Shown piece by piece: positions 3,221-44,749 of a stretch of DNA of 47,677 nt. A program made the position numbers and the translations under genes. How positions within the stretch are numbered: position 1 is the stretch's first letter; the number at the start of each line of letters is the position of its first letter. Source of the DNA: a virus; IMG/VR virus record IMGVR_UViG_3300046559_000432, positions 1 to 47,677 of that record; one strand, written 5' to 3'. The notes under the pieces are model-generated. The model worked only from the letters and a program-made list of their open reading frames with translations. It did no database searches and was not told the DNA's origin.

Positions 3221-6200
3221 TTACGGAATGCGGTTTTCGCCCGGCCGAGTGCGCGGCTTGATGCCGAATGCGTTCGCTAGCCCGTCCTCGCCACTGTCGA
3301 GCAGCCGCCGGAACGCCCAAAGGTTTTGCAGCGGCAGCACCTCGCGCAGCTTGTGCGAGTCCGTAGCGTTCCACGTGCCGCGTATTGCGTCCGATCCAGC
3401 GTTCTTCATCGCCTCGAGGTGCGACCAGGTAGGGCCGAGAAGCTCGGATAGCCCGGATCGGTCGACGCGGTTCGACAGCGGGCGCCCCGCGCCGATTGCC
3501 CGGAACGCGTCGGTCGAGCCGCCGAGGAGCCGGCTTTGCATGGCGTTCAACTCGGAGAACCAGCCGGTAACCGCGCTCCTATGCACCGCCTCCTTGATCC
3601 AGTCCTGCGGCTTGTCGCTAGCCGCCTGCCCGGACACCAGCGTGTAGAGCCGATAGGAGAGCATGCCCGACGCGATGAGGGCGAAGAAGCCTTGCAGCGT
3701 GCGCCCGTCACGCTGCTGCAAGTTCGAGAGCAGGATTCGCTCGTGCGCGCCTGCGATGAAGCTTTTGAACTGTCCGATGAGGCCGATGACCGGATTGGAC
3801 ATCCATAGTGGCTTCTCGGCGCCAGGCGTCACGACCGAGATATTAGCCTCGTGCAGCATGGCGTGCTCGAAGGCCTGGCGCGCGCCCGTGTCCTTCCAAT
3901 CGCCCGTGTTCGGCAGGTTGACGCCGTCGATCTTCTCTCCCCCATCCTCGGAGAATGCCTTCCAGATGCGCGCAGCCATGTGCGGATCGATCGATGCGCC
4001 GGCCATGCGCGCGAGCGCCTTCGGATCGCCCGCGCCTTCGGCAATCGCCTTTGCGTCGCGCAGGAAGTCCTGGCTCGCCGCCGAGGTTGCGAGCGTCTTC
4101 ATCCAATCGGTCCACGGCCCGTGCAGGTTGACCAGCATCGAGCGGTCCGTCGCCCAAGAGAGCCCGCGCTCGAACTTGGAACCCGGCCGGTAGTTCTCCG
4201 TCACGTCGGCGAACTGCGTCCGCATGTGGCCCATCATGCCGTCGACTCCGACCGCCATCGCCTTGGCCTGCGCCCGCATCGCCTTGGGCAACGGCGACAT
4301 GCCGATCATGCCCTTGAAGAACGGGATATAGGCGTCGCGCATCACGTTCATGAAGCCGTATCGGGCGACGGCGTTGACGAGATCCTGCTGCCGGTTCGCC
4401 ACCGATGTGCCGAGGCCGGCGAGCGAGTTGATGTTGCCGAACATGCGGGCATAGCGCGCGGCGTTCCTCATGCGCGGATCGGGCGACCAGCCGTAGACGC
4501 CCCGGATGCGGTCGCGCTGCGCTGCAATATCGCGGATGGTGGCTTTGCGCATGTCGCCGATGCGCTTCAGCTCCTTGTCGCTCTTCGCCGCGTCCGCCAT
4601 GCGGGCATAGTCCTCGTTCACCCGGCGCATGACGTCGGTCGCCTCGACGTCGCCGAAGCGGCGCGTGAGCGCGATGTCCGGCACGACGGTCCGCAGGTGC
4701 GCGGCGAGGGCGTGCTCGACGTCCGTCTCGACGAAATCCTTTACGTGCGAGGTCGGGATGGCGAAGTCGCGCCGGTTGAGCGAGCCGCGGACTTGCTGCT
4801 TTGCGTTAATCGGGCCGATCGCCGGACCGCCAGAGGCGATGTCATAGGGAATGCGCCCATCCGGCGAGCCGACGATGCGGTCGATCGTCTCGTCCGCGCG
4901 GTTACCGAGCTCCTCGCGCGACAGGTCGCGGTCGCTCTCGAGGATGCGCTTGACGGCGCGATCGACGGGATGATCCGCCGAGGTGAGCCGCGCGCCCTTG
5001 CCCTCATAGACGCCGGCCTGCTGCTTCAGCCCGCGCACGCGCTCGGCTTCGTCACGCGCCTTCAGGGCGTGGATGGCCTCGGCCGAGCTGTCGCCTTTCC
5101 AGCCGCGAATCTCATCCTCGATCTTGCCGCGCACCTTGCCGCGCGCATCTTCGGCATTGGTTCGCGCCGCCTCGAGGAGGTCGCGCATCATGCTTTGGCG
5201 GTCGAGGCGCTGCTGCAGGAGCTTGGCTCGGCCGCTCGCCCTCGTCTCGGCGACTCCGGCCTCGCCGGTGCGCGCGCCCGCAATCGTCTCGCGTTGAGTG
5301 AGCTTGCCGCGATCCGCCTGCGCGCGCTCGACGAAGTCTCGTAGCTGCTGAAGAGCGGCCCGCTGACCTGCGATGTCCTGCGTGGCGCCCTCAAGATCCT
5401 TGCCTGCCTCGACCTTCTCTTGCAGCCGCTTCAAGACGGCCGGGATGCGACCCTGGTCCTCCTTGATCGCGCGGGCGACGCCCGCGAGAGTGGTCGGCCT
5501 GTCCGCGCCACCGAGCGCCTCCTCGAATGCCGTCGCCATCTCGCGGACGTGCTGCGTCTTGTCGCCGCTGGCTTCCAGCCACCACGAAGGCTCGCGACCG
5601 CGGCTGGCCTCGTCGATGATATCGAGCACCTGCGCCGGCGTCGGGCGACCGCCTTCGAACGAGTGCGGCGACATCTCGCCGAATAGCTCGCCCCATGCGT
5701 CGGCGTCGCGGCCGGCGCTGTTGATCAATCCCGGCCGGCGATTTGCCCCGCCGATGATGGACGAGACGTCGCCGCCTGTGTCCTTGATGCCGCCTTCCTT
5801 GACGATGTGGGACAGGATGCTTGCGGGCTTTGGCGCCTTGCGCCGACCGAGAAATACTTCGGCCGCCTTGCGGATATCGCCCGGAAGAACGTCGCCAACC
5901 TCTTCCTTCTCAACGCGCGCTTGCTCGGCCTGAGACATGGGCGCGGCCTCACGCCGGAGCGAAGCTGCTTCCCTCTCGAGATCGGCGAGCCGCTCAAGCG
6001 TCGCCGGGTCGCGCGCTTCGCCGCGCATAGCCGAAATGAATTCTCCGACCTCCGATAGCGCCTCGGCGATATCTGTCTGACGAGCGCGAACCGTATCGGT
6101 GCGCGCCCCGGCCTGCCGAGCGCCCATCGAGGCCTCATCGGCGCGCGTTCCGGTCTCGGCCCCCCGCTGCTGAAGCGTCGCGATCCTGCCCTCTAGCTTG

Positions 6201-12542: not shown

Positions 12543-14782
12543 TAAATTGTGACCTCTAGCGAGAGCTCGCAGATGCGCATCGGGCCGGGTCGGTCCTTGG
12601 TGATCGTTACCGAAGGATCGTATGAGCGACCGAGCGGCCGGATTGAAAACTGGTCGCCGCGCACGACAGGCGGCTTTGTCGCATCATCCCCGAAATACGT
12701 CACCGGGAACGTCCGGTTGCCGAAGGTAAACCCTGAGAAATTCTGCACGTTCACCATGGCGCGCTTGATCTTGCGGCGCTTCTGGCGCTGACCGAGATCG
12801 TCTCCCGGCTGCGCGCCCGGAACGATCGGCTCGAAGACCGGCGGCGCGAATATGCCTGCGACGAGCGTCGGAGTGTGGAGCAAGTCCTCGCCGTTCTGCG
12901 CGATGATGAAGCCGTTGCCGTCCACCTGCCGGTCGCCCATGTCGAGCGCCCCGTCCATCAGCGTCACCGTCTGGTTCGTGAAGAGCCAGAGCGGACCCTT
13001 GCCGGCCGGCGGAGCGAGCGCGGCGGGAAGGTTGTTTATGAACAAGCACTGATCCATGAACAGGCTCGTGTCCTCGACCTCGACGAACGTGTTCTGATAG
13101 AGCGATGTGAAATACACGGTTTCTTCGATAGAGGACGCCCAGGAGATGCCTTGACCGGTGGCCGGATCTGCTCTCGTGTCCCAGATCGACCAGCCGACGA
13201 AGGTCCGATCCGGCGTGAATTTTCCCACGACCATCGTCTTGTCTGAATTCACCACGTAGACGTATCGCTCGGGAATTTGTCCGTCGCCTGCGACGAGAGT
13301 GAAGGTCGTTGGCGAGTCGAACAGGTCAGAATGGTTGTCGCTCATGTCCTGCGTCACGTAGGGGCGCGAATAGGCGCCCGTCGCGCGCACGACGCACATG
13401 CGGTTGCGCCCAAAATTCATGTAGACGATCACATCCTGCGAGGGGATCGGCCGAATGTTGGAGACGCCATCATTACTGATCATGCGGAACTCGACGGAGC
13501 CGGGCTTAAGGGGGTTGCCGGACGAGGAGATCGGGATCTGAAAGATGCCCCGGTCCGTGAACACGAACTCGTCGCCCCAGCCCACGACATGATGCACGCC
13601 AGGCGGCCCTTGCGAGGTCGACGCTATGAACTCGAGCATTGCCGAGTCGGCGAGAGTCCCGGCCTGTGGGTTGAGGGCCGCCGCCACCTGATCGACCCAT
13701 AGGCTATTCGGAACGTCGATAGTGCTCCACAGCACGGCCTCGGGCTTTTGCGGAAAGTCGCAGAAGCCGAGCCTCGAGTGGTCATAGAAGCAAGAGCCCG
13801 GCCAGCCGCGCGCCGCCGACATGAACTCCTCTTGCCATTCCGACGTGATCTGGTCGCTCGTGCTGCCCTGGACCGGGTTCGCCGTGAAGGCGCTAGAACC
13901 ATAGGGGCCGACGAGGATATCGGCGACCGAGCCGTCGGGTTTCCAGACCCAGGCGCCATTGAACTTGATCGCCGATATCAGGACGCCGTTCACCGTCCCG
14001 GACCCGATCGAGGTTACCTCGAACTTGATGGGCTGGATCGTCGCCGAGACGACCTGACCGACCTGGAATGGCGTCGTGTCGACGACCGGCACGGAGATCG
14101 CGTCGGGAAGGCGGAAGCCCACCGTCGCCGTGGCATGCGTAGAATTCGCTACGCCCGTTATGACGACCTGCTGCCCGGCGATCGAGAGCGACGCCCCGAT
14201 ATAGGAGGCACTGAAGAAGGGCACCGAGCAGGTAAGCGTGATCCCGGCGCCAACCGTTCCCGTATACGCCATCGTCGAGCCGTCTTGCCGAAAATTGTAG
14301 AACGGCTCGAAGACCTGGCCGCCCCCGCTTTGGAAATTGAACTGAGCCGGCACGCCCCATGTTTGAGTGTCTGGGTCCCACGGGACGACCTGCGGTCGCA
14401 TGCCGCCAAAGGTAATGACGATCTGGTTCCCAGCCTTTACCCACTGCACAAGCCAGATAGTGTCGGCGGTCCAAATATAATCGGCGGACTTGCGCGTCAC
14501 GAGGACCGTGCCGCTCGTGTTGGCGATGGAGATCTGGCCCGCGCCGAAGCCGATGAGATAATCGAAACCCGTCGCCATGCGCACCGGATCGGCGCGAAGC
14601 CCGATCGACAGGCTGATCGGCCGCCGGCCCGGCCGCGGCACCAGTTGCCCGGCCTGCTCGATGCGCCAATTGCGCTGTGTCCTCGCCCCGGTGCGCGCTG
14701 CGTCGCCGTCATCCCGGCGCTGCATGCCGGCATTTACCTGGCCGCCCGAGAAGTCGCGTTGGGCGAATAGCAGCGCCTTCAC
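12542..14782 (-). CDS. Tail tubular protein B-like (nozzle)
   Basis: I place the start at a GTG (14780-14782) that overlaps the TGA of tail tubular A as GTGA; the longer frame to 15061 is an out-of-frame shadow of that gene. This gives 746 residues, close to T7 gp12 (794). The N-terminus KALLFAQRDFSGGQVN has the FSGG signature common in this family, then RNWRIEQAGQLVPRPG. The body is beta-rich throughout. Together with the preceding gene it would form the tail tube and nozzle. Confidence 0.8.
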   Translation of the reverse strand: MKALLFAQRDFSGGQVNAGMQRRDDGDAARTGARTQRNWRIEQAGQLVPRPGRRPISLSIGLRADPVRMATGFDYLIGFGAGQISIANTSGTVLVTRKSADYIWTADTIWLVQWVKAGNQIVITFGGMRPQVVPWDPDTQTWGVPAQFNFQSGGGQVFEPFYNFRQDGSTMAYTGTVGAGITLTCSVPFFSASYIGASLSIAGQQVVITGVANSTHATATVGFRLPDAISVPVVDTTPFQVGQVVSATIQPIKFEVTSIGSGTVNGVLISAIKFNGAWVWKPDGSVADILVGPYGSSAFTANPVQGSTSDQITSEWQEEFMSAARGWPGSCFYDHSRLGFCDFPQKPEAVLWSTIDVPNSLWVDQVAAALNPQAGTLADSAMLEFIASTSQGPPGVHHVVGWGDEFVFTDRGIFQIPISSSGNPLKPGSVEFRMISNDGVSNIRPIPSQDVIVYMNFGRNRMCVVRATGAYSRPYVTQDMSDNHSDLFDSPTTFTLVAGDGQIPERYVYVVNSDKTMVVGKFTPDRTFVGWSIWDTRADPATGQGISWASSIEETVYFTSLYQNTFVEVEDTSLFMDQCLFINNLPAALAPPAGKGPLWLFTNQTVTLMDGALDMGDRQVDGNGFIIAQNGEDLLHTPTLVAGIFAPPVFEPIVPGAQPGDDLGQRQKRRKIKRAMVNVQNFSGFTFGNRTFPVTYFGDDATKPPVVRGDQFSIRPLGRSYDPSVTITKDRPGPMRICELSLEVTI

Positions 14783-15534
14783 GGCCAATACCCCGTCGAC
14801 CGCCTCCGGCGCCGCTCGAGGATCGACGAGCGGAACATCACGCGCCGCGGCTCCTCGCCGTCCGAGCGGGAGCGCGCGAGCTTCAGCGCGTCCTCGGCCT
14901 TCTTGTCGCGGGCCTCGGCCTCGGGGAAATCTTCGTTGAGCCCGCGCAGGCAGGCCGCCTCGATCTTGAGGCGCAGCGTCGCCACGAATCCGATCGACCA
15001 GGGCTGAGCCCCGACGGGAAAGGGAATGTAGATCGCGACGACGCCCATCGGCCCGACGCAATGGATCATGTCCTGCACGATCCGGTATTCGAGATCGGGC
15101 GGCCGCGTGTCTTCCTCCGGCATGCCATAGCCGAGCGAAGGCAGGACGAGCGCGGCGAGGTCAGCTCGGTAGACGGTCTGGACAATCAGGCAATCCCCAG
15201 GCTTCTCGTAGACGTCTTTGAAGCCCGGATACAACGAATCCCCGATGCGCGAGAGCTGCTGGAACCGCGTTGCGAACTTCCAGTCATGCCGATAGAGCAG
15301 CGTCGCGACCTCCTGCTCATAGGCCGAAGAGGCGACGCGCCACTCGTCGGAGGCGTCATCTGGGACGGTGACGGTATTATTCGCGGTGTTGACGAGCGCT
15401 TCGTTGATGATGCGCAGCTTGTCGTTGAAGAGCGTGAAGCGCTGCGGCGTTGCGCCCGTCTCGGCGACGATATCGATGCCGATGCCGTCGCTCGGCGTCT
15501 CGGTCGTGAGGAGCGTTGGATTGGGATCGGCCAT
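14779..15534 (-). CDS. Tail tubular protein A-like (adaptor/gatekeeper)
   Basis: At 251 residues it is somewhat longer than T7 gp11. The helical pattern with ALVNTANNTV, YEQEVATLLYRHDWKFAT and FQQLSRIGD is typical of tail tubular A. The ATG at 15532-15534 follows the late-promoter word at 15566-15575 by 31 bases. Its stop overlaps the start of tail tubular B, matching their stoichiometric assembly at the portal ring. A Glu/Arg-rich tail ends the protein. Confidence 0.8.
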   Translation of the reverse strand: MADPNPTLLTTETPSDGIGIDIVAETGATPQRFTLFNDKLRIINEALVNTANNTVTVPDDASDEWRVASSAYEQEVATLLYRHDWKFATRFQQLSRIGDSLYPGFKDVYEKPGDCLIVQTVYRADLAALVLPSLGYGMPEEDTRPPDLEYRIVQDMIHCVGPMGVVAIYIPFPVGAQPWSIGFVATLRLKIEAACLRGLNEDFPEAEARDKKAEDALKLARSRSDGEEPRRVMFRSSILERRRRRSTGYWP

Positions 15535-15577: not shown

Positions 15578-17047
15578 TTAAATCCCGTGAGCAATAATCG
15601 TGACGTCGTTCACTGTGGCCGTGCCTCCCGTGATGTTGGAGAGGCCGAGATCGATCCAATATGGCGTGCCGGGAGTTAGCCCCGTGGCGATGCAGCTCTG
15701 CGAGAAAACGCCCTTCCCCGCCGTGGTCGAGGCTACATATTTTGTCGATGTTGTTCCGCAAAGCGTCCCGGTAACGGCATCGCCATTGCTGGGAGGGGTT
15801 CCCGTGCCAAACCTGATGCTGAAGGCCGCACCATCACCGATCGTCGACGCATTGAAAATATCACCGCTAACCGTGATCACGGCCCTCGAGCTAATAAGGG
15901 GCGTGATGCTAGCGACCCCACCAAACCCCATCATGACCTGCGTCGCGCTTGTCGTCCCGGTGGGATTGTTGGGAGTGAATCCCGATACCGCGAACTTGCC
16001 AGTGGTCAACACGCAAGCCGAGTTTGTCCAATTGGTCTGACACGCCCCTGCGATGTTTCCCGCCATCACCGAGACAGAGTCAACGGTCGCGCTATTGGTG
16101 ACGCTCGTTCCGCCGACCGATCCAAGGCTGTTGGTAAGGATCGTCGCGTTGATCGTGTTGTCGAATGAGAGCTGCCCCTGGATCGTCTGGTTTACGACCA
16201 TGACCTCGGTCGTCTGCACCGCGGGCGTGCCGCCGAACACCACATCGCCAGAGGCCGACGAGGTGCATCCGGCCGGAAAGACTCCCCCGCCCATGAGGCT
16301 AAATCCGACGAGGCCGGCGCCATAGATCGAATAGGTTTTGGCTCCGAAAACCGTGATATTGTCGAAATTGTCGTCGCGGATGCCGATAGGGGCGACGCTG
16401 TTCAGCGTCCCGTTCATGTAGAGCATGTATTCGGTAGTGCAGTTTCCGGTAGTCGACAGGACCATATCATGGAAGTGCAAGAAGCCTATCGGCGGCCCGA
16501 CGGGCTGGTTGATTGATATCAGGGAGCCGCCGGTCGTCCCAGCCTTGCCGTAGATCCCCATGTTCCCGATGGACGAGTCATTTGCGGCAAAGCTCGAGAT
16601 GCAGAACAGCCCGCGCGTCGGATCGGTCTCATTGTAGTTTCTATAGATAACGGTTGGACCGATGCCCGCGCCGAAGAGGTTGATCTGCCCGTGTAGGCAG
16701 TTTGGGCGGCTCGTGAAATTATAATTTCCCGGCGGCATGAAGCATTGCTTCGTCGGGCCGGCCGCGCATGCGTCGATGAAGGCGTTGAAGGCCGGCGTGT
16801 CGTCGCTCGATCCGGGCGTGCCGTAGGTCAGGAAATTTGTCTCTTGGAGCAGCGCGCCTGCGAGAAATGGCGTCAGGTTCGAGAGCAGGCCCTTGCGTGT
16901 GATGCCGTTCTGCACGAGGGCGAAAAGCTCAGATCCCGTGAAGGGCACGGCCGCCGGCGGAAGGTTGCTGATCGGTACGGTCCTGGTCTGCGCCAGCGCG
17001 CCGAACGACGCTAGCGCGATGAGAGCGGAGAGGACGAAGCGCTTCAT
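15578..17047 (-). CDS. Tailspike-like beta-helix protein with Sec signal peptide
   Basis: The 489-residue product begins with a signal peptide (MKRFVLSALIALASFGALA, cut before QT). A short linker PISNLPPAAVPFTGSELF follows, of the type found at the head-binding end of many phage spikes. A pectate-lyase-like start comes next (SSDDTPAFNAFIDAC and PPGNYNF). The rest is an Asn/Gly/Thr-rich beta-helix with paired cysteines. A signal peptide is unexpected for a protein assembled on virions in the cytoplasm. It may be exported, or the hydrophobic N-terminus may serve in assembly. The word at 17080-17089 lies 32 bases upstream. Confidence 0.7.
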   Translation of the reverse strand: MKRFVLSALIALASFGALAQTRTVPISNLPPAAVPFTGSELFALVQNGITRKGLLSNLTPFLAGALLQETNFLTYGTPGSSDDTPAFNAFIDACAAGPTKQCFMPPGNYNFTSRPNCLHGQINLFGAGIGPTVIYRNYNETDPTRGLFCISSFAANDSSIGNMGIYGKAGTTGGSLISINQPVGPPIGFLHFHDMVLSTTGNCTTEYMLYMNGTLNSVAPIGIRDDNFDNITVFGAKTYSIYGAGLVGFSLMGGGVFPAGCTSSASGDVVFGGTPAVQTTEVMVVNQTIQGQLSFDNTINATILTNSLGSVGGTSVTNSATVDSVSVMAGNIAGACQTNWTNSACVLTTGKFAVSGFTPNNPTGTTSATQVMMGFGGVASITPLISSRAVITVSGDIFNASTIGDGAAFSIRFGTGTPPSNGDAVTGTLCGTTSTKYVASTTAGKGVFSQSCIATGLTPGTPYWIDLGLSNITGGTATVNDVTIIAHGI

Positions 17048-17079
17048 GCCGCGAGGGTGGCGGCGCTCCCGTTCAGCAG

Positions 17080-17089
17080 CAACGCACCC
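17080..17089 (-). promoter_or_regulatory. Late-gene word CAACGCACC (copy 4)
   Basis: The minus-strand reading is CAACATAAGGGTGCGTTGCTG, 32 bases upstream of the spike start at 17047. It also sits next to the plus-strand promoter candidate of the PEP-CTERM gene, so the two divergent transcripts share about 100 bases of control region. Confidence 0.6.
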
Positions 17090-17094
17090 TTATG

Positions 17095-17129
17095 TTGACA
17101 CCTCCGTCGATTGAGAGCCTAGCTATAAA
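17095..17129 (+). promoter_or_regulatory. Candidate sigma70-type promoter of the PEP-CTERM gene
   Basis: A perfect -35 box TTGACA lies at 17095-17100. An AT-rich TAGCTATAAAA follows from 17120, giving a spacer of about 19 bases to TAGCTA. The spacer is longer than ideal. It is the only plus-strand promoter-like signal in this late minus-strand region. Confidence 0.4.
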
Positions 17130-17147
17130 AAATCCTGGGAGGACAGG

Positions 17148-17675
17148 ATGAAGAGAGCTTTCTTGGCTGCGCCATTGGCATTGGTGATGGGGGGCGGGAC
17201 GGCGGGAGCAACCGTCTGCACGATCGACGTTCCGATCGAGGTTCACCGCGGTGGCTCGCACGATGTCCTCCAAGCCTTCGGCCATGCTTCCTTCCCCGAC
17301 CTCACCTTGCACTTTGGCGACATCGCCAACTTCACTGTCGAATTCGGCAAGGAGCTGATCGTCGATCATCCTCATTTCCTGGCCGACAGCTTCCACAGCG
17401 ACGGCCAGCTTATCGTCTCTCAGCTTCCGCTCGGCAACGGCTTTGTGCATTTCGTCTATGACTCTCTTTTTTATCTTTCCGACCCAGACATCGGAAATAG
17501 CTTCAATGTCTCTGCTGGCTTCATCGGCACGCCCAATTCGGATATCAGCCTCACGCTGAATGGATTGAGCTTTGAGGTGACCGCTGTTCCGGAGCCGGCG
17601 CCCTGGATGCTGCTGGGTTTGGCATTCCTCGGGATTTTCATGTTCAAAGGTTGCCCCCTTCGCGATCATCCATGA
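17148..17675 (+). CDS. PEP-CTERM surface protein (phage cargo gene)
   Basis: The 175-residue protein has an N-terminal signal peptide (MKRAFLAAPLALVMGGG, cut near AGA). A beta-sandwich-like middle follows, and the C-terminus is VPEPAPWMLLGLAFLGIFMF plus a short tail with Lys and Arg. This is the three-part PEP-CTERM signal: PEP motif, membrane span, basic end. Known PEP-CTERM proteins are processed by exosortase and placed on the cell surface or in the EPS matrix. The ATG has a strong GGGAGGA upstream. It is the only plus-strand gene in the late block and ends tail to tail with the next gene (10-base overlap). It is probably host-derived cargo expressed in the lysogen. The basic tail is weaker than usual. 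Confidence 0.75.
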   Translation: MKRAFLAAPLALVMGGGTAGATVCTIDVPIEVHRGGSHDVLQAFGHASFPDLTLHFGDIANFTVEFGKELIVDHPHFLADSFHSDGQLIVSQLPLGNGFVHFVYDSLFYLSDPDIGNSFNVSAGFIGTPNSDISLTLNGLSFEVTAVPEPAPWMLLGLAFLGIFMFKGCPLRDHP

Positions 17676-19084
17676 TTGTTACAGTTGATGATGTTATCAT
17701 CCGCGATCGGCGAATTATCAGTTAAATTAATGTTCCCGCCGTAGGTCGGGGTCGGCATCCCCGCAGTAACAAGCATGCATCCAACCGCTCCTGTCGGATC
17801 AATGTAATTGTTGGTCCAATTCACAGACCCAACTGAGGCCATCGGGTTCATGTCGCCTATCAAATATGACACTCCGGTGTGGTTCGATACTCCGCTCCAG
17901 GCGTCCGCGAGCTTATTCGCCACAAATACATTGTGATCCGTCACCCATGACGTCAACGCGTTGGTCGTGCCGTTAAGGTTGTTAGGAATGACGCAGGACG
18001 TCGTTCCGGTCGTGTCCGAACCCTCCATGCATAGGGAGTAGGATTTCTGATAAAGCGCAAAAGTATGCCCACCTGTTCCAACAAATTGCTCCGCGTCACC
18101 ATGGTTTGAGGTCAAAAGTGTCATCTGTGTGCTAGCTGTGACTACCGGCGAGGATAGTTGAAAGGCTGTCCCAGCGCATGATCCTGTCGATGAAGTAATT
18201 TGTCCAAGAAAAGCATTTCCATTTCCCATAACGGGACTGCCGGCTTTAACGGTCCCTGTCTGAGAACCAGCAACAAACGAAGTTATGCATAGCGTGGTTC
18301 CTGAAATGCTGCCTATGGCCTGCCCGATAGGATAGGTCATTCCTTCTTCGTAGTCATATTGCATCACGAAATTGCCATAGCCCGCGGATGTGATACATCT
18401 TCCAGGACAATGTAGAAATACCGAGTAGGTAATATTTACATCGCTATTACCAATAAGCCCTCCCAAAAGCGTCGTCGCCACTGTTGTTGATGTGGCCTCA
18501 TACGTCCAAGGCGTCCCGACTCCATCGAACACGGAGTTCAGAACCGTCACGGTCGGTGGAGCGGCGGTGAGGTTACCAATGTTGACAAGCTGAGCAATGT
18601 TGCCGCAGTTGGTGCCCCATTTGAAATTGGAGTTTTCAAGGGTGATATTGCCAGAGAAGGGATTAGCGAAGTTTAAGAATGTGCAGTTGTTGGCGCCAAA
18701 ATCCCAACCGTCAAAGGTGACATCCGTCGATGCCACATTGCAAGTCATTGTATGGGTTACACTCGAGTAAGAACACCCTGTTGGAGGGGCATCGGTGCCG
18801 GGGATTTTCAAGACCGTAGCAGATGGGATGCCAATGGCGTAATCGACCCCCGCGACGTTCCACGTGGGACGGGTTGCGTAAGTCTGCCCGGACTGAAGCG
18901 CATAGGACGTGAAAAAGTTCGAATGCTGGAAGTTGCCGCCGACCGGAGCTCCGGGACATCCGTCCGGCAGCGCAGCGCCGAGTGGGCATGAGCCTGGCGC
19001 AGCCACAGCACCATGCAGGCGCATTGCCGCGTCTGCTCCCGCACAGTTCAGCAGCAGAGCAAGACCTGCAACGAGAAGCTTCAT
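17666..19084 (-). CDS. Secreted beta-helix-like protein (472 residues)
   Basis: A signal peptide (MKLLVAGLALLLNCAGADA) precedes a Thr/Asn/Gly-rich body with many short beta repeats (VTFDGWDFGANNCTFLNFAN, SGNITLENSNFKWG), as in right-handed beta-helix spikes. Repeated cysteines suit an oxidising compartment. The start overlaps the stop of the preceding gene (ATGA). The gene is visibly more AT-rich than its neighbours, suggesting exchange of a host-range module. It could be a virion spike or an exported surface protein. Confidence 0.65.
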   Translation of the reverse strand: MKLLVAGLALLLNCAGADAAMRLHGAVAAPGSCPLGAALPDGCPGAPVGGNFQHSNFFTSYALQSGQTYATRPTWNVAGVDYAIGIPSATVLKIPGTDAPPTGCSYSSVTHTMTCNVASTDVTFDGWDFGANNCTFLNFANPFSGNITLENSNFKWGTNCGNIAQLVNIGNLTAAPPTVTVLNSVFDGVGTPWTYEATSTTVATTLLGGLIGNSDVNITYSVFLHCPGRCITSAGYGNFVMQYDYEEGMTYPIGQAIGSISGTTLCITSFVAGSQTGTVKAGSPVMGNGNAFLGQITSSTGSCAGTAFQLSSPVVTASTQMTLLTSNHGDAEQFVGTGGHTFALYQKSYSLCMEGSDTTGTTSCVIPNNLNGTTNALTSWVTDHNVFVANKLADAWSGVSNHTGVSYLIGDMNPMASVGSVNWTNNYIDPTGAVGCMLVTAGMPTPTYGGNINLTDNSPIADDNIINCNNHG

Positions 19085-20478
19085 GGCACAGTTACCACAG
19101 CTCCAGTTTTATGATAGGTCACGGCCGTCTGAGTGCCACTCGGCACAGTTTGAATCGACAACAACTCACCCGCAGCAGCCCCATAGCTGTTTGTTGAGTC
19201 ATTGCAAGTCGCTGGAGTTGCCGCACCGTTAATCACACAGGCGATATTCCCTGGAGATCCAACAGCCGATCCGCCTGAGAGCAGATTGTCTGTCCTGCTG
19301 GTGCCCAATGCCCAGGTGCTCTGGATCACTCGGAGCTTCTTGATCGTCATCGCCACAGGGGCAATATTGCGATTATCCGTCTCTGTAGCTGAGTTACCAC
19401 TGATGCCGGCCAAATCAAGAAATCTATTGGCACTGACAGAGATCCCGGCACCGCCGGTCTGAAACACCAGAGCTTCATTAGAAATAGTGGGTATCCATCT
19501 CACACTCGCCTTTGGAGCGCCGGCCGTTGGGGTTGTCCCAGTCAAGCACCCTGTTAGGCTATTACCTGCTGGGCAGCTTTCGAATGACAATGTATCTCCC
19601 GCCGCGATGGTGATTGCATGAGCCCCATTGGTGTCGTTGCATGTTGTGTTGGGAGCGCCCGAGCCGGTCAGGAAACATGTTAAAGTCGTTGGGGTGCCGT
19701 TTTTAAGAACATAGTAGTCGTATCGCCCCGTTCCAGGTGCGGCTGGTGACAACACATAGAGGTTGTCGATCGTGCCAGCGGTTGGCATAACAGCAGAGGC
19801 GAGTGTCTCTGTCGTTTGAAGGCTCGCCGCACCGCCCCAGCCATAATAATCAATCACGGTCGCCGATGAATTAGCGGTGCTCTGTCCACTGAACAGCGGG
19901 CTTTCTTGCCCTATTGTAGAAGTGAAGGTGCCGGAAATCTGCACTGTGGTCTGTGCAGTCGGAACTGCGCCAGCTTGACAACTTGTGGCATTGCTAGGAC
20001 ACACTTGCCACTCAGCAACATCCCCAGGATTTACACTCACAGTATGCACAACGTCCGCACAGGACGTGGCGGTGGGATTGGTTGAGGAGCCGCTAGTGCC
20101 ATCTATTGTGCAGGTAAGCGTCGTCGCCACTGGACTGACCGAGCCGGCTGCAGTAAACAGCGTGATCTTATATGTCCCTGTGCCTACTCCGGCTGGGAAA
20201 TTGGCATAGAGATTGCCAATTGTTCCTTGCGTAGCGATAATGCTCTGCCGCCCAGTGACCGAGGTTCCCCAGTTGTTATTCGCAGTCCCGGACGCCAACG
20301 AGCCGTAGTTGAGCAATGTCTGGCTCACAGCCGTGATTGTTGACCCTCCTTGGCTTAGGATTGGCGTGACCATCATGACCACGGGAGGACCAATAGAAGT
20401 TTGCAGTACAGAGTGCCACGAGGCCTCGGCTGGAGTGGCGATTAGCAGCCCTGCAAGAAGGAGGTCACGTAGTCTCAT
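19081..20478 (-). CDS. Secreted triple-repeat beta protein
   Basis: I chose the ATG at 20476-20478, which overlaps the upstream TGA as ATGA and opens a signal peptide (MRLRDLLLAGLLIATPAEA). The mature protein of about 445 residues contains three tandem domains of about 140 residues. Each has an IGNLY or IDNLY-like strand, a GTGTYKITLF or GTGRYDYYVL-like strand, TTLTC, a second Cys before an Asp, and a GD/CP motif. The paired cysteines suggest disulphides. It is probably a fibre-like or surface protein. The function is not known. Confidence 0.65.
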   Translation of the reverse strand: MRLRDLLLAGLLIATPAEASWHSVLQTSIGPPVVMMVTPILSQGGSTITAVSQTLLNYGSLASGTANNNWGTSVTGRQSIIATQGTIGNLYANFPAGVGTGTYKITLFTAAGSVSPVATTLTCTIDGTSGSSTNPTATSCADVVHTVSVNPGDVAEWQVCPSNATSCQAGAVPTAQTTVQISGTFTSTIGQESPLFSGQSTANSSATVIDYYGWGGAASLQTTETLASAVMPTAGTIDNLYVLSPAAPGTGRYDYYVLKNGTPTTLTCFLTGSGAPNTTCNDTNGAHAITIAAGDTLSFESCPAGNSLTGCLTGTTPTAGAPKASVRWIPTISNEALVFQTGGAGISVSANRFLDLAGISGNSATETDNRNIAPVAMTIKKLRVIQSTWALGTSRTDNLLSGGSAVGSPGNIACVINGAATPATCNDSTNSYGAAAGELLSIQTVPSGTQTAVTYHKTGAVVTVP

Positions 20479-21674
20479 AATTGATAGCCCCATGCTGACA
20501 CCGAGACTACACCGCCTGTGCCAGGGGCGGCGGAGATCACGGCGATGCCAGTATTAATGGCCGAAGACGGGACGCAGGGAGTGAAGATCATCTCAGTGAT
20601 GCCAATGCCACTGGTCGATGGCGCGGTCCATTGAGTGAAATTCATAGTGGCGGTCACGGTCCCAGTAACAGTTGAATTGGCAGTCGCTGCGGCGTTGGCA
20701 TTGGCGCGAATAGAGAAGCCGCAAATATACGTCTTGATCGAGGCCGAGGCCGCAAGCGTCGCAGTGGTTGCCGCAGTCGTGCCCGTGGCCGTGGCGGTGA
20801 TCGGCACCGCTCCGAATGGATACTGGCTCGCGAGCGTCGCCGGATTTCCGGCCGTCGTGTTGAGCGTGTCGAGCTTGGTGTTGCTCGAGGTGATATCGGC
20901 CTCGATCGTCGTGAGGCGCTGCGCTAGGCGCTGCATCTGCTGATTGAGAGAGCACGAGGCCGTATCGGTCGTGCAGGCCGTCGCGCCGGGCGCTCCGAGG
21001 TTCGTGTTCGTCGTCGCTATGGCAGTCGCGACGTTCTTCAGGATGGCGATGACGGAACCGCTGCCAGAGGTCCAGGCCGCATCGGCCAAGGCACCCACAT
21101 CGACGAGCGCCCCGGTGAGATAGGCGCCCCCGACCACGGACCCCGCGGCCAATGTCGCCGCCCCGGCGCCGCCGCCGCCTCCCCCGGTGCCGGTTGGCAA
21201 TCCCGTGCCGCCGACCATGTTAATCACTACATTGCCGGTGCCAGGCTTGGTTTCGCAAGCCACCTGCGTGGCCGCGCCTTTGGTGAAGGCAAACCAGCCG
21301 CCGCCACCAGAGATGAAAACGCCGGTCTGGGATGGAGTCGGGCCGAGGTTGCAGTAGACCCCCACCGCGCCGCCGTTGGACACGACCACAATGTCGCCCG
21401 CGGGCAGTGTTCCGACCTGGCCGGCCTCGGAGGCCGTAAAGGGGGTGCCAAGGGCGGAAGCTGTGAACCCGCCGACTGTCGTGGCCGAAATCGACCCGCT
21501 GATGCACGTCGCCCCAAACGCATCGACGGTCTGATAGGCAGGGCCGGTCGCTGTCAGGCTTTCGCCGTTGCAAGCGCCGCTCTTGCCGAGCTGGACGCCC
21601 TGCGCGCTGGCCGGAACGACGGAAATGCAGGTCGCCGCCGCGAGGGCGGCAAGGGCAAGCAGCAATCTACGCAT
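20475..21674 (-). CDS. Secreted Gly/Ala-rich structural-type protein
   Basis: The 399-residue product has a signal peptide (MRRLLLALAALAAATC then VVPASA before QG). An N-terminal Gly/Thr-rich beta region carries a few cysteines, followed by a GTGGGGGGAGAATLAAG linker. A helical stretch (MQRLAQRLTTIEADI) may trimerise it. The C-terminal beta domain is one I have seen in proteins from phages of this type, without a known role. It is the first of four consecutive signal-peptide proteins downstream of the capsid block. Confidence 0.65.
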   Translation of the reverse strand: MRRLLLALAALAAATCISVVPASAQGVQLGKSGACNGESLTATGPAYQTVDAFGATCISGSISATTVGGFTASALGTPFTASEAGQVGTLPAGDIVVVSNGGAVGVYCNLGPTPSQTGVFISGGGGWFAFTKGAATQVACETKPGTGNVVINMVGGTGLPTGTGGGGGGAGAATLAAGSVVGGAYLTGALVDVGALADAAWTSGSGSVIAILKNVATAIATTNTNLGAPGATACTTDTASCSLNQQMQRLAQRLTTIEADITSSNTKLDTLNTTAGNPATLASQYPFGAVPITATATGTTAATTATLAASASIKTYICGFSIRANANAAATANSTVTGTVTATMNFTQWTAPSTSGIGITEMIFTPCVPSSAINTGIAVISAAPGTGGVVSVSAWGYQL

Positions 21675-22483: not shown

Positions 22484-23452
22484 TCAAGCGACGAAGGTCG
22501 CGTTGGTGATCCCCGACAGGCGGGTGAAGGCGAACAGGTGCTCGACGACCAGGCCCACATCCCACGACACATGCGTGTTGTAGGTGATCGAATCCTGCAA
22601 GAGGCCGACGTCACGGATTTCCATCGGCTTGATCTGGATACCCTTCACGCCACCCTCGCTAAAATTGCAGATATACATCGACGAGGTCACGGCCGAGCCG
22701 CCATTGGTCGCGACTTCGGTGAAGGGCAGGATCGCGGCGTGCAGATCCTTCTCGTAGCCGAACAGAAGCGGATAGCCCGCATAGGAGAGCTTCGGCTTTC
22801 CGGTCTCGTCGAAGGTCTGCGCGACGAAGCCCGTCAGGGTCGTGGTGCGAGCTGCGGCGATCCAGCGATACTTGATCGCCCACGGGCAAATGATATGCGA
22901 CGGCCTGCGGCATTGCTGGATAGCGTTATCCAGCATCGAGAGCGAAAGCGCACTGCCGCCAGCCGTGTTGAGCGAGTTGTCGACGTTGCGGCCATAAAAG
23001 GCCGAGCGCTTTTGCAGACCGGAGAACACCGTGCCGTCGGTCGTGTTGTCGCCCTTGAGGAACGTCGAGAGCCAGAGCTCGCCCAGCCTCGCCATGCCCA
23101 TCTGCTCTTCCCAGGCCCGGCGGCGCGGGCCGCCGCGGTCGACGATCGCCCGGTCGACCGGGATGTCGTGGTCGATGATGAAGGTCGCCTCTTGGAACGG
23201 CGTCACCGTGCCGGCGCCGCTGGTCGAGGCCGAGTTCACCCGGCGGAAGGCCATGCTCGACGCGAGCGAGGCCTGCCGGTAGCCCTGGTAGATCGGGCCG
23301 GAGAGCCCCTCGAAGGGGAGCACCTGCATGACGTCCGACGAGTTCGCGAACATCTCGACGAGAGGCCGCGCGTTGTCGTCGATGTCCTGCCCCTTCAGAT
23401 ATTCGGGCAAGGTCATGACTGGCGTGATGAAGGGGACTGCGTTGGCGGCCAT
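22484..23452 (-). CDS. Major capsid protein
   Basis: The 322-residue protein follows the scaffold gene and has the composition and length of an HK97-fold coat protein. Its features include an N-arm with VMTLPEYLKGQ, a central PRRRAWEEQMGMARLGE helix and a C-terminal VSWDVGLVVEHLFAFTR stretch. It would form the icosahedral shell assembled on the upstream scaffold. I recognise it by order and general pattern rather than by a single diagnostic motif. Confidence 0.75.
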   Translation of the reverse strand: MAANAVPFITPVMTLPEYLKGQDIDDNARPLVEMFANSSDVMQVLPFEGLSGPIYQGYRQASLASSMAFRRVNSASTSGAGTVTPFQEATFIIDHDIPVDRAIVDRGGPRRRAWEEQMGMARLGELWLSTFLKGDNTTDGTVFSGLQKRSAFYGRNVDNSLNTAGGSALSLSMLDNAIQQCRRPSHIICPWAIKYRWIAAARTTTLTGFVAQTFDETGKPKLSYAGYPLLFGYEKDLHAAILPFTEVATNGGSAVTSSMYICNFSEGGVKGIQIKPMEIRDVGLLQDSITYNTHVSWDVGLVVEHLFAFTRLSGITNATFVA

Positions 23453-33355: not shown

Positions 33356-34054
33356 CTATGTCCCGTCGTTCCAGGGGCGAGCGGCATGAGGATCATATGG
33401 CACGTAGTCGGCGGCAGCCTTGTCGAGATAGTCTCGGAGCCATGGCGTGCAGCGATACGGGCCGGCGCGCTCGGTATTCATCGCCTCGCAAGCCCGGTCG
33501 AGGATGCGCCGCTCGAGATCGGTTATCTTGCGGCGTCCCATCGCTCGGTTCCCCTCGCTGGTCGACGGAACCTCGAACCGGCCGATGTGCTTTCCGGGAT
33601 CGGGCAGCTTTCCGCCGTTGCGCAAATATTCGCCGATCTCGCCGCGCTCATATCGAGCATATATCTCGCGAAGCTTCGGGTTGGCGTGGAACCATTTCTC
33701 TCGATCGGCTAGCTGATCGCGTATGCGCTCCGTTCGCTCATTGGCGTCGAGCTTTGGCGTGGCGGCTTTTTCGCAGGCCTCACGAAGCTGGTTGATGGTC
33801 GGTGCTCGATCTCGATGCGCGGGAATGCCGCTGGTCGGATCCGTCACAGCCATGATGATCGGCTCGGGGAACTGGCTCAAGATCGCAGCGAGGGCCGCCA
33901 AATACATATCGGGATTATCGGCCCTAGTTTTTGGGAAGCAGGCGAGCATGATTTTCACGCGATGGGCCGCTAACGAATTGATCGAAGAGCCCGGCGCCGC
34001 CGTTGACGAGCTTGTCGAGTTTGCAGCTTGCTGCGTAAACTGATCGTTGCTCAT
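33356..34054 (-). CDS. Replication-associated protein, possible helicase loader
   Basis: The ATG at 34052-34054 has GGAGG upstream. The 232-residue protein has a Ser/Thr-rich start and a helical core (MYLAALAAILSQFPEPIIMA). Next comes a charged linker and a region with TDLERRILDRACEAMNTERA. It follows the initiator-like gene and overlaps it by about 130 bases, the position of lambda P-type loaders. No P-loop is visible, so the function is inferred from position. Confidence 0.5.
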   Translation of the reverse strand: MSNDQFTQQAANSTSSSTAAPGSSINSLAAHRVKIMLACFPKTRADNPDMYLAALAAILSQFPEPIIMAVTDPTSGIPAHRDRAPTINQLREACEKAATPKLDANERTERIRDQLADREKWFHANPKLREIYARYERGEIGEYLRNGGKLPDPGKHIGRFEVPSTSEGNRAMGRRKITDLERRILDRACEAMNTERAGPYRCTPWLRDYLDKAAADYVPYDPHAARPWNDGT

Positions 34055-34814
34055 CGAGGGCCTCCTTGGTTTGGATTTGATTATCGGCAGGAGCGTCAAG
34101 CCATCGCTCCTGGTTCAGCCAGGTGGCGGGATTGCACCATTCTCGGGTAGGGGGTTTCGTGCGCTTGTAGGTCTCGACACCGCGAAGCAGCGTGTCTGCA
34201 TCGGTCTTAGATCTTGCTTTCCGATAGGACTTTAGCGCGGCAGCCTTACCGATCTTGTGCTCGTTCGCTAGCCACCATCTATCGAATTCGGTGTCGATTT
34301 GACGAGCGAGCGAAGCGAGCGTTTCTTTCTTACTTTCTGTATCTGTATCTGTATCTGTATCTGTATCTGTATCTGGTAGTTTTGCCGCCGTTACGTATCC
34401 GTTACGTGGAGATGCTGAGGCGTTTGGTGGTCTCTTTTGGTCAGGATTGACAGCGTGAACCTGCCTATATCTGCGCTGCCTTTCGGCGTTCGTCGGGTCT
34501 TTGATGTCGACCTCGAATTGCCTTTCCTTCCAACGACATATCTCAATTATGTCGTTATCGTGGAACTTGAGCAATCCGGCACTTCTCATCTCGCCCATGA
34601 TCTTATCTACGAGGTCAGGGTCGAGGTCGAGAACGGCTGCGTAAAGGCAGCATCCGCGCGCTGCTTTTCCGCGATGAGATTCGTGAGAAGCATCCTCCAA
34701 GATAATTGCCCACACCGCGACCGTAACGGCGACCGTTACGCCAGCGTTACGGGCGACAAGGCGGAATTTGGCATCCTCAACCGTCCCTTCATACCAGCGA
34801 AACCAGCGGCTCAT
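33924..34814 (-). CDS. Replication initiator O-like protein
   Basis: From the ATG at 34812-34814, the first ~115 of 296 residues form a winged-helix-like domain (MSRWFRWYEGTVEDAKFRLV, LLKFHDNDIIEICRWKERQF) as in phage DnaT/O-type proteins. An acidic Asp-Thr repeat linker follows around residues 147-160. The C-terminal domain has FDRWWLANEHKIGKAAALKS and WLNQERW, a pattern familiar from phage replication proteins. It probably opens the origin and recruits host helicase. Confidence 0.65.
   Translation of the reverse strand: MSRWFRWYEGTVEDAKFRLVARNAGVTVAVTVAVWAIILEDASHESHRGKAARGCCLYAAVLDLDPDLVDKIMGEMRSAGLLKFHDNDIIEICRWKERQFEVDIKDPTNAERQRRYRQVHAVNPDQKRPPNASASPRNGYVTAAKLPDTDTDTDTDTDTESKKETLASLARQIDTEFDRWWLANEHKIGKAAALKSYRKARSKTDADTLLRGVETYKRTKPPTREWCNPATWLNQERWLDAPADNQIQTKEALDEQRSVYAASCKLDKLVNGGAGLFDQFVSGPSRENHARLLPKN
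34336..34375. repeat. Hexanucleotide tandem repeat (TCTGTA)6
   Basis: Six perfect copies plus a partial one lie inside the replication initiator gene and encode a run of Asp-Thr. Gain or loss of units would keep the frame and change only the linker length. Confidence 0.9.
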
Positions 34815-35047
34815 GGCGTTGCGATCTCCTGCCAGCATTTCCAGCAAAATGCGGTTCGGTGCGTCGGCCTGAAGCCTGGCTCGTCGGCGAGCAGGAACGG
34901 CGCGAGCTTGGCACCGCAGTTGGCGCATGGGTCGGGCTCGGGGCGCATGGGCGCTGGCTCCGGCCTCGACATGGCCGGCGGCATGACGGGCTCGGGTCCG
35001 GCCGCGAGCTGGCGCTTGAACGCGCGGGCGACCTCGGCGCCGCTCAT
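34811..35047 (-). CDS. Small zinc-ribbon protein
   Basis: The 78-residue protein has a Pro-rich middle and two Cys pairs (CANCGAK and CWKCWQ) that would bind one zinc. Start and stop overlap the neighbouring genes. It may be a DNA-binding accessory of replication. Confidence 0.6.
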   Translation of the reverse strand: MSGAEVARAFKRQLAAGPEPVMPPAMSRPEPAPMRPEPDPCANCGAKLAPFLLADEPGFRPTHRTAFCWKCWQEIATP

Positions 35048-35655
35048 GCTGGCGCTCCGTCGCGGTGCAGCCAGCCAATCGTGGGAGCACCAATGTGCCC
35101 GCGCTCCCACACGAACCAAGCGTAATCGGTCGTGCCGTTGCCGGGCCGCATGCCGGCGGCCAGCACGGCGCCGGGCGGCATGGACGGGCGGGGCGCCAGG
35201 AACCACACGCGCTTGAGCGGCGTGGTGGCGAGCCAGCGGGCGCGCTTGTCGCCTTGAACCCAATTCGCCGGCAGCAGCATCGCTGTCTTGTCTCGCGTGC
35301 GCTCAAGAGCCAGCGTGACGAATTCGAGAGCCTTTCCGAAGGGGGGATTGCAAACAATGTGGCCGGGGCCTTGCCGATCATCATCATCCCGATCAAGAAA
35401 ATCCATCGTGGCGAAACAGACGCCGGCCCGGTCGATAATATCGGAGCCGTAGGCCATGAGGCCAGCGGCCCTAGCGCTCTTGAGAATTGTCCCGATCCCG
35501 CAGGCTGGATCGATGATCCCAGGTGAGAAATCTTCGGCCTCGAAAAGCCTCTCTGAGCACCAAGCGGGCTCGACATACCAATCGTTGGCGTCGCGCAGCC
35601 ACAGGTGCGATTCGCGCTTGCGGAGTGGGCCGCGCAAGGGTCCGGCGAGGCTCAC
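35044..35655 (-). CDS. N6-adenine/N4-cytosine-type DNA methyltransferase
   Basis: The 203-residue protein carries the AdoMet motif DPACGIGTI and the catalytic CNPPFG. The NPPF tetrad is typical of amino-methyltransferases acting on adenine or cytosine N4. No target-recognition domain or partner nuclease is visible, so it looks like an orphan protective enzyme. It starts with GTG overlapping the upstream stop (GTGA). Confidence 0.8.
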   Translation of the reverse strand: MSLAGPLRGPLRKRESHLWLRDANDWYVEPAWCSERLFEAEDFSPGIIDPACGIGTILKSARAAGLMAYGSDIIDRAGVCFATMDFLDRDDDDRQGPGHIVCNPPFGKALEFVTLALERTRDKTAMLLPANWVQGDKRARWLATTPLKRVWFLAPRPSMPPGAVLAAGMRPGNGTTDYAWFVWERGHIGAPTIGWLHRDGAPA

Positions 35656-43564: not shown

Positions 43565-43586
43565 CCGAGCGCACAGGTGAGCGGAC

Positions 43587-43946
43587 GTGAGCACGCTCCT
43601 GCGCATGGCAGACGTAGCCGAGCGGCTTGGCAAATCAGTCCGATGGCTTCAGGATTGGATGCGCGTCCACCCGTGCGGGCGCCTCGCCGGCCGCACGCGC
43701 CTGTTCACCGAGGCCGACTTCCGCCGTATCGTCGACTCCCTCCCGAGATACACAGGTGCCCCATGCCTCTCACGCTCGTCGAGCCCCGCGAAGGCCGCTC
43801 AGCATTCTTCCGCGTTCGGGGCACCTACCTCGGACTCTATGTGGATCGAAGCACAGAGACTTCTGACCGAAAGAAGGCGCGTCGATTCCTCAAGGCGCTC
43901 GCCGAGCAGATCGAACGTGGTCAGCTTGCCGGACCCGAGGAACTGA
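43587..43946 (+). CDS. Excisionase-like HTH protein
   Basis: From a GTG start, residues 1-55 form a MerR-like winged helix (LLRMADVAERLGKSVRWLQD, RTRLFTEADFRRIVDSL). Genes of this kind before an integrase usually encode a recombination directionality factor. The frame then runs about 180 bases into the integrase gene, where it is Ser/Arg-rich and probably unstructured. Confidence 0.6.
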   Translation: MSTLLRMADVAERLGKSVRWLQDWMRVHPCGRLAGRTRLFTEADFRRIVDSLPRYTGAPCLSRSSSPAKAAQHSSAFGAPTSDSMWIEAQRLLTERRRVDSSRRSPSRSNVVSLPDPRN

Positions 43947-44749
43947 CCTTCACCGCGGCGCTCGTATCTTACCGCAAGAGCGGGGGAGAGGGCCGGTTCC
44001 TGAAGCCAATTCTCGACTACTTCGGCCCGAGGATGCCGGCGCGGGATCTCACGCAAGCCGTGCTCGACGAGGCGGCGCACGCGCTTTACCCGAAGGCCAC
44101 GCCGGCGACGCGCAACAGGCAGTTCTACACGCCCGTCTCCGCTGTGCTGAAGCATGCCGGGATCGAGCGCTCGATCCGTCGGCCGAAGGGCGCCGACGGC
44201 ACGCGACGGGTCCGCTTCCTGATGGAAGGCGAGGCGGCGCGGCTCCTCGCGGGCGCCAGCTCCGTCGACCGGGAGTTCGGCATCTTCTGCGCCTGGCTAC
44301 TCTACACGGGGCTGCGCCTGTCCGAGGGCCTGCGCGTATCATGCCGAGCCGTCGACCTATCGGCCGGTTTCGCGCATGTCGAGGTAACCAAGAACGGTGC
44401 GCCGCGGCCCGTCCACCTACCGCCCGTCCTAGTCGCCGAGCTCGCGACGCATCCGCGTGGCCTCGGTCGCGATGGCCGGGTGTTCCGGTTCAGCAAGAAC
44501 TCGTCGCTCTATGCGATGCTCGAGGACGCGAAGGCTGCAGCCGGCGCCGATCTGGATTGGTTCACCTTCCACTACTTCCGTCATACATGGGGGGCTTGGT
44601 TAAGGATGCATGCGGGCCTGGATACCACTGGCTTAGTTGCGACTGGGGCATGGAAATCCAGAAGCGCAGCTTCCCGGTATGAACACGCTATGCCTTCAGA
44701 TGAAGCAAGGAAGTCCGATCTTCTGCCAAACGTGTTAAGGAAAGCGTGA
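43763..44749 (+). CDS. int: Tyrosine integrase
   Basis: The ATG at 43763-43765 gives 328 residues; upstream frame is a shadow of the excisionase gene. The catalytic set is visible: Arg185 in YTGLRLSEGL, His270-x-x-Arg273 in FHYFRHTWGAW and nucleophile Tyr306 in SRYEHAM. It would integrate the phage at a host att site. The last ~160 bases use noticeably more A/T than the body of the gene. An AT-rich region follows that may be attP. Confidence 0.9.
   Translation: MPLTLVEPREGRSAFFRVRGTYLGLYVDRSTETSDRKKARRFLKALAEQIERGQLAGPEELTFTAALVSYRKSGGEGRFLKPILDYFGPRMPARDLTQAVLDEAAHALYPKATPATRNRQFYTPVSAVLKHAGIERSIRRPKGADGTRRVRFLMEGEAARLLAGASSVDREFGIFCAWLLYTGLRLSEGLRVSCRAVDLSAGFAHVEVTKNGAPRPVHLPPVLVAELATHPRGLGRDGRVFRFSKNSSLYAMLEDAKAAAGADLDWFTFHYFRHTWGAWLRMHAGLDTTGLVATGAWKSRSAASRYEHAMPSDEARKSDLLPNVLRKA

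Follow-up and report, generated by a model that had tools for sequence, protein, structure and literature searches.

We found that an uncultivated phage carries, beside its tailspike-like gene and on the strand opposite to its late genes, a gene for an exported protein with a borderline PEP-CTERM-type C-terminus. The window analyzed here is the entire stretch of 47,677 nucleotides making up IMG/VR record IMGVR_UViG_3300046559_000432. The gene occupies a site at which sister phages carry methyltransferases, which suggests, by analogy, that phages of this group alter the host surface while dormant. We give an even chance to the reading that it is a lysogenic-conversion cargo gene (a 'moron'), whose product would be exported, anchored by an exosortase and thereby shield the receptor. 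Exosortase substrates form a large class of proteins, and what most of them are for is unknown. Should phages indeed carry them beside receptor-binding genes, a role in surface shielding or lysogen conversion becomes testable, and uncultivated soil phages would prove to have an unrecognised type of lysogenic conversion.

The phage, its relatives and its probable host

The window encodes a major capsid protein of the epsilon15 gp7 type (22484..23452, minus strand) and a tyrosine integrase (43577..44749, plus strand), both recognized by family matches, along with a portal protein, a terminase, tail proteins matching phrog_394 and phrog_376, exonuclease VIII and HTH regulators. Judged by this gene content, the phage is temperate and podovirus-like, the integrase and HTH regulators being the evidence for the temperate lifestyle. 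A short tandem repeat of GTATCT lies at 34339-34385, in or near a replication gene (33924-35576).

Relatives were drawn from IMG/VR, and no near DNA relative of the 12-34 kb stretch was detected among 50,697 phage records. A 4-kb contig from another metagenome, L177 (IMGVR_UViG_3300046727_000623), has a portal 100% identical to that of the window and appears to derive from this phage or one very close to it. One relative can be tied to a named host, Bradyrhizobium sp. ISRA432, in which it forms a circular 46.6-kb replicon; its late genes are colinear, with 49% and 53% identity in the portal and capsid proteins, respectively. This 'plasmid' (L254; NZ_CP094518.1, 1-46622), with its integrase, head-tail genes and S24-family repressor, looks like the complete circular genome of a temperate phage. 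Among plasmid integrases, too, the closest is from Bradyrhizobium (36%). Scanning GTDB contigs with an alignment of the capsid protein gave no match, and a tail-protein alignment was too divergent for use in scanning. The nearest relatives with named hosts point to Bradyrhizobium, and the window phage probably belongs to soil alphaproteobacteria.

A plus-strand gene amid late genes of the opposite strand

The stretch 17148..17675 on the plus strand is a real gene encoding 175 aa. When scored against the codon usage of conserved genes of this phage, its frame gives +0.138 bits/codon, as against -0.035 for the open antisense frame. Its GC content at the first, second and third codon positions is 0.59, 0.41 and 0.69, and this order (third > first > second) matches that of the head genes of this phage, while a plus-strand ORF at least as long arose in just 3 of 2000 shuffled versions of the region. 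The initial annotation had placed such a frame here, amid late genes of the opposite strand and behind a ribosome-binding site; both its orientation and the Shine-Dalgarno sequence GGGAGG (17137..17142, plus strand), 5 nt upstream of the ATG, are borne out. The promoter box proposed alongside these holds only in part: the hexamer TTGACA is present at 17095..17100 on the plus strand, and no sigma-70 -10 element was found at 16-18 bp from it. In alphaproteobacteria -10 elements are loose. A terminator-like site on the minus strand (17149-17132) was dismissed as lying within chance expectation.

A borderline PEP-CTERM-like protein

The protein begins with a signal-peptide-like N-terminus, MKRAFLAAPLALVMGGGTAGA (17148..17210), for which a rule-based check gives an h-region of 2.41 and an AGA cleavage site, in line with the export signal claimed earlier; window genes outside the variable slot do not exceed 1.88 in this measure. 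There follows an ectodomain (17211..17585) with no homologue detectable in phage records, plasmids or the PDB, and none in viral or genome contigs, which were scanned by exact short peptides, an insensitive method. The 175-aa protein as a whole has no PHROG family match and no PADLOC match. A single-sequence structure model, which might have borne on the beta-rich domain proposed in the initial annotation, was set aside, its pLDDT being 35.

At its C-terminus, which reads VPEPAPWMLLGLAFLGIFMFKGCPLRDHP, the protein has a VPEP motif followed by a hydrophobic span (17586..17645). The PEP motif and membrane span occupy residues 147-166, the hydrophobic part being residues 153-166, and in this respect the initial annotation was correct. 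It had also proposed a short basic end, which proved weak: the tail KGCPLRDHP (17646..17672) is not Arg/Lys-rich, and FKGCPLRDHP has a net charge of +1. By comparison, ends of viral PEP-CTERM ORFs (see below) have a net charge of +2 or higher in 152 of 155 cases, mostly +3 to +5, and of +1 or lower in just three. The suggested check against PEP-CTERM models gave a divided result. PF07589 matches residues 146-166 with 20.1 bits (E 6.4e-4) against a GA of 20.7 when the whole Pfam library is searched, and at the same site with 23.6 bits (E 4.6e-6), above the cut-off, in a one-genome search. TIGR02595, on the other hand, reaches 12 bits against a cut-off of 16, and several NCBIfam PEP-CTERM families, this one included, match the C-terminal part with E-values of 2e-4 to 0.3, all under their cut-offs. 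Because the profile scores lie near or under the cut-offs and the basic end is weak, we call the protein PEP-CTERM-like, a borderline case that falls short of full curated membership. No exosortase was found within the window.

A variable slot beside the receptor-binding gene

The stretch between the capsid gene and the tail genes is variable, ranging from about 0.3 to 7 kb across relatives. The window's version comprises three genes on the late strand, the opposite-strand PEP-CTERM-like gene and a tailspike-like gene, and is bordered downstream by the phrog_394 tail protein (14779..15534, minus strand; PHROG match). The tailspike-like gene (15578..17047, minus strand) has an N-terminus conserved in the relative L001 (49%) and a divergent remainder. 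The three other late-strand genes are 17666..19084, which has no family match in profile searches, 19081..20493 and 20475..21674. All four, the tailspike-like gene included, have signal-peptide-like N-termini, those of the last two being hydrophobic; slot genes with such starts also occur in L001, L002, L226, L229, L240, L249 and L254.

The PEP-CTERM-like gene and its tailspike neighbor point away from each other, with 100 bp between them. This region contains a minus-strand copy of the 9-mer GGTGCGTTG (17080..17088), 33 bp ahead of the tailspike start. The 9-mer occurs in 10 copies in the window where 0.48 would be expected, almost always on the late strand (other positions include 3210, 15566, 24323 and 26500, with 33161 on the plus strand), and is often placed 32-71 bp ahead of late gene starts. 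It is also enriched in L014 and L237 and present in other relatives, and probably serves this phage group as a regulatory element of late genes.

The PEP-CTERM-like gene is absent from the relatives, some of which have other cargo at the shared site. In L001, an FkbM methyltransferase gene (PF05050, E 1e-23) is divergent from the tailspike gene at about 54 bp. In the ISRA432 phage, a class I methyltransferase gene (PF08241, E 1.6e-8) is divergent from a tailspike-like gene at 98 bp, the pair being positioned further along the late block. L014 has a methyltransferase gene on the opposite strand, convergent with the tailspike-like gene; the PADLOC match of this methyltransferase to mad2 was rejected as evidence of a defence function, for it covers about 100 residues of methyltransferase fold. 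Because opposite-strand methyltransferases recur in these three phages, the site beside the receptor-binding gene is, by comparison of gene orders, a recurrent cargo slot of this phage group. Of the roughly 30 relatives in which the slot can be read, only a few have opposite-strand cargo, which counts against the cargo reading.

PEP-CTERM proteins in other viral genomes

A search for homologues in other phages, as the initial annotation had proposed, yielded none for the ectodomain, but did yield other PEP-CTERM proteins in viral contigs. One of these, a canonical PEP-CTERM protein of 231 aa (L176:6367-7062), is encoded elsewhere in the genome of a related phage represented by two records, G009 and G010, whose compared 20,960-base loci are 100% identical. 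No PEP-CTERM protein was seen in 38 further relatives identified by their portal, many of which are fragments; the controls of that search were silent as well.

Beyond this group, we scanned IMG/VR with two DNA patterns representing common PEP-CTERM endings and obtained 34 matching stretches with one and at least 120 with the other (at least 154 together); across 146 of these loci 155 ORFs end in a PEP-CTERM motif. Grouped by ectodomain, these ORFs form three larger families, with 25, 21 and 13 members (the G010 protein is counted in the last), and many small groups. In a neighbor survey of the first and third families (102 ORFs sampled), we obtained matches to capsid, portal, helicase, recombinase, endolysin and tail-fibre proteins and observed no obvious housekeeping genes, though host DNA may be part of some IMG/VR contigs. 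Eight viral PEP-CTERM proteins were compared with the PHROG families, all without a match, and representatives of families A and C matched nothing in phage records. In L112, a family A gene (4909-5556) belongs to the head cluster: it is read in the same direction as the major head protein gene and precedes it by two ORFs, in which it differs from the window gene; L100, L134, L155 and L160 are similar loci, head-cluster placement having been tested in L112 only.

Phage-borne PEP-CTERM proteins therefore look recurrent in uncultivated viral genomes. The earlier remark that phage-borne exosortase substrates are little described agrees with the literature searched, a body that excludes most subscription papers and in which we found no description of them. 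Within it, PEP-CTERM is mentioned together with phages or prophages only in passing, as judged chiefly from titles, and no paper combines PEP-CTERM with 'auxiliary metabolic genes'.

Possible role of the gene

The initial annotation had proposed a lysogen-expressed cargo gene that places a protein on the host surface. In favor of the cargo part of this proposal are the temperate nature of the phage, the absence of the gene from relatives and the methyltransferases in the slot of L001, L254 and L014. The PEP-CTERM assignment is borderline against the curated cut-offs. As in other morons, the carrier is temperate and the gene is an accessory one at a shared site with alternative cargo. The features suggestive of a promoter of its own are the opposite strand and the TTGACA box, with the -10 at standard spacing absent.

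We infer that the gene would be expressed in the lysogen, being transcribed separately from the late operon out of the 100-bp region shared with the divergent tailspike gene. The signal peptide would then direct the product to Sec export, and the PEP-type C-terminus would retain it at the cell envelope, most likely after processing by a host exosortase, the phage having none. Displayed there, it would change the layer met by incoming phages, the most likely effect being to shield the receptor from this phage or its competitors; the methyltransferases of sister phages in the same slot would achieve the same end by chemical modification. The main support for a host-surface role is that surface-type cargo recurs beside the receptor-binding gene, the link to the receptor being inferred. 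In the temperate podovirus Kapi1, which binds O-antigen, the receptor is altered on lysogenization, and this was suggested by the authors to be a possible cause of superinfection immunity (PMC8787464).

Among other explanations, we consider it unlikely that the gene is a passenger from a host chromosome, with a decaying sorting signal and no anchoring or function left. Such decay would fit the weak basic tail (net +1, where viral PEP-CTERM ORFs mostly have +3 to +5), the NCBIfam scores under cut-off and the lack of a homologue in any searched collection, but the open frame, signal peptide, Shine-Dalgarno sequence and codon bias are all intact, useless DNA gets lost from phages and the slot genes of relatives look functional. 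It is somewhat less probable still that the protein is exported during the lytic cycle or belongs to the virion instead of serving lysogeny: the signal-like N-termini shared by four adjacent late genes and the presence of some family A PEP-CTERM genes within head clusters, in the same orientation, speak for this, while the gene's orientation opposite to the late operon and its lack of a PHROG family match speak against it. We regard as rather improbable, a little more so than the preceding option, a surface adhesin or matrix protein that aids the lysogen in sticking or forming flocs with no anti-phage role; floc formation in Zoogloea reportedly requires PEP-CTERM proteins along with exopolysaccharide (PMC9012009), but adjacency to the tailspike, like the methyltransferases that sister phages carry in this slot, speaks for the receptor and not for adhesion. 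Finally, that the plus-strand ORF is a chance reading and the true gene is the minus-strand frame 17073-17669, which is open for 198 aa, fits the late operon and has a start overlapping the stop of 17666-19084, is highly improbable and was rejected on codon use, for this frame scores -0.035 to -0.086 bits/codon with GC1 > GC3 and has no family match, whereas the plus frame bears the PEP motif (E 4.6e-6 per genome).

Returning to the receptor-shielding cargo gene, a broader and more doubtful conjecture is that temperate phages of exosortase-bearing hosts commonly carry their own substrates, which the host's sorting machinery would display so that lysogens are coated with proteins of the phage's choosing, the coat gene here being exchanged together with the divergent tailspike gene and hiding the receptor of the latter. 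If this were true, each receptor-binding protein would travel with a factor that hides its receptor. The divergent layout of tailspike and cargo offers a simple rule for locating more such genes.

Comparison with known systems

Like the substrates of the PEP-CTERM/exosortase (EpsH) system (PF07589, TIGR02595), the window protein combines a signal peptide, a variable ectodomain and, at the C-terminus, a PEP motif with a membrane span behind it; it differs in its weak basic end, in scores around or under the curated cut-offs and in being phage-borne. The PEP-CTERM protein of G009/G010 is also phage-borne, and in the same phage group, but has an unrelated ectodomain, another genome position, an orientation on the late-gene strand and a full Arg-rich end. 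With the FkbM and class I methyltransferase cargo of L001, L014 and L254 the gene shares its placement on the opposite strand adjoining the tailspike gene, though theirs are enzymes and the window's is a predicted surface protein, and the L014 copy is convergent with the tailspike. The seroconversion genes of the temperate podoviruses Kapi1, Sf6 and Sf101 (PMC8787464) are comparable as accessory genes that alter the host surface to which the phage binds; these change the chemistry of the O-antigen, whereas the gene described here would add a protein to the surface.
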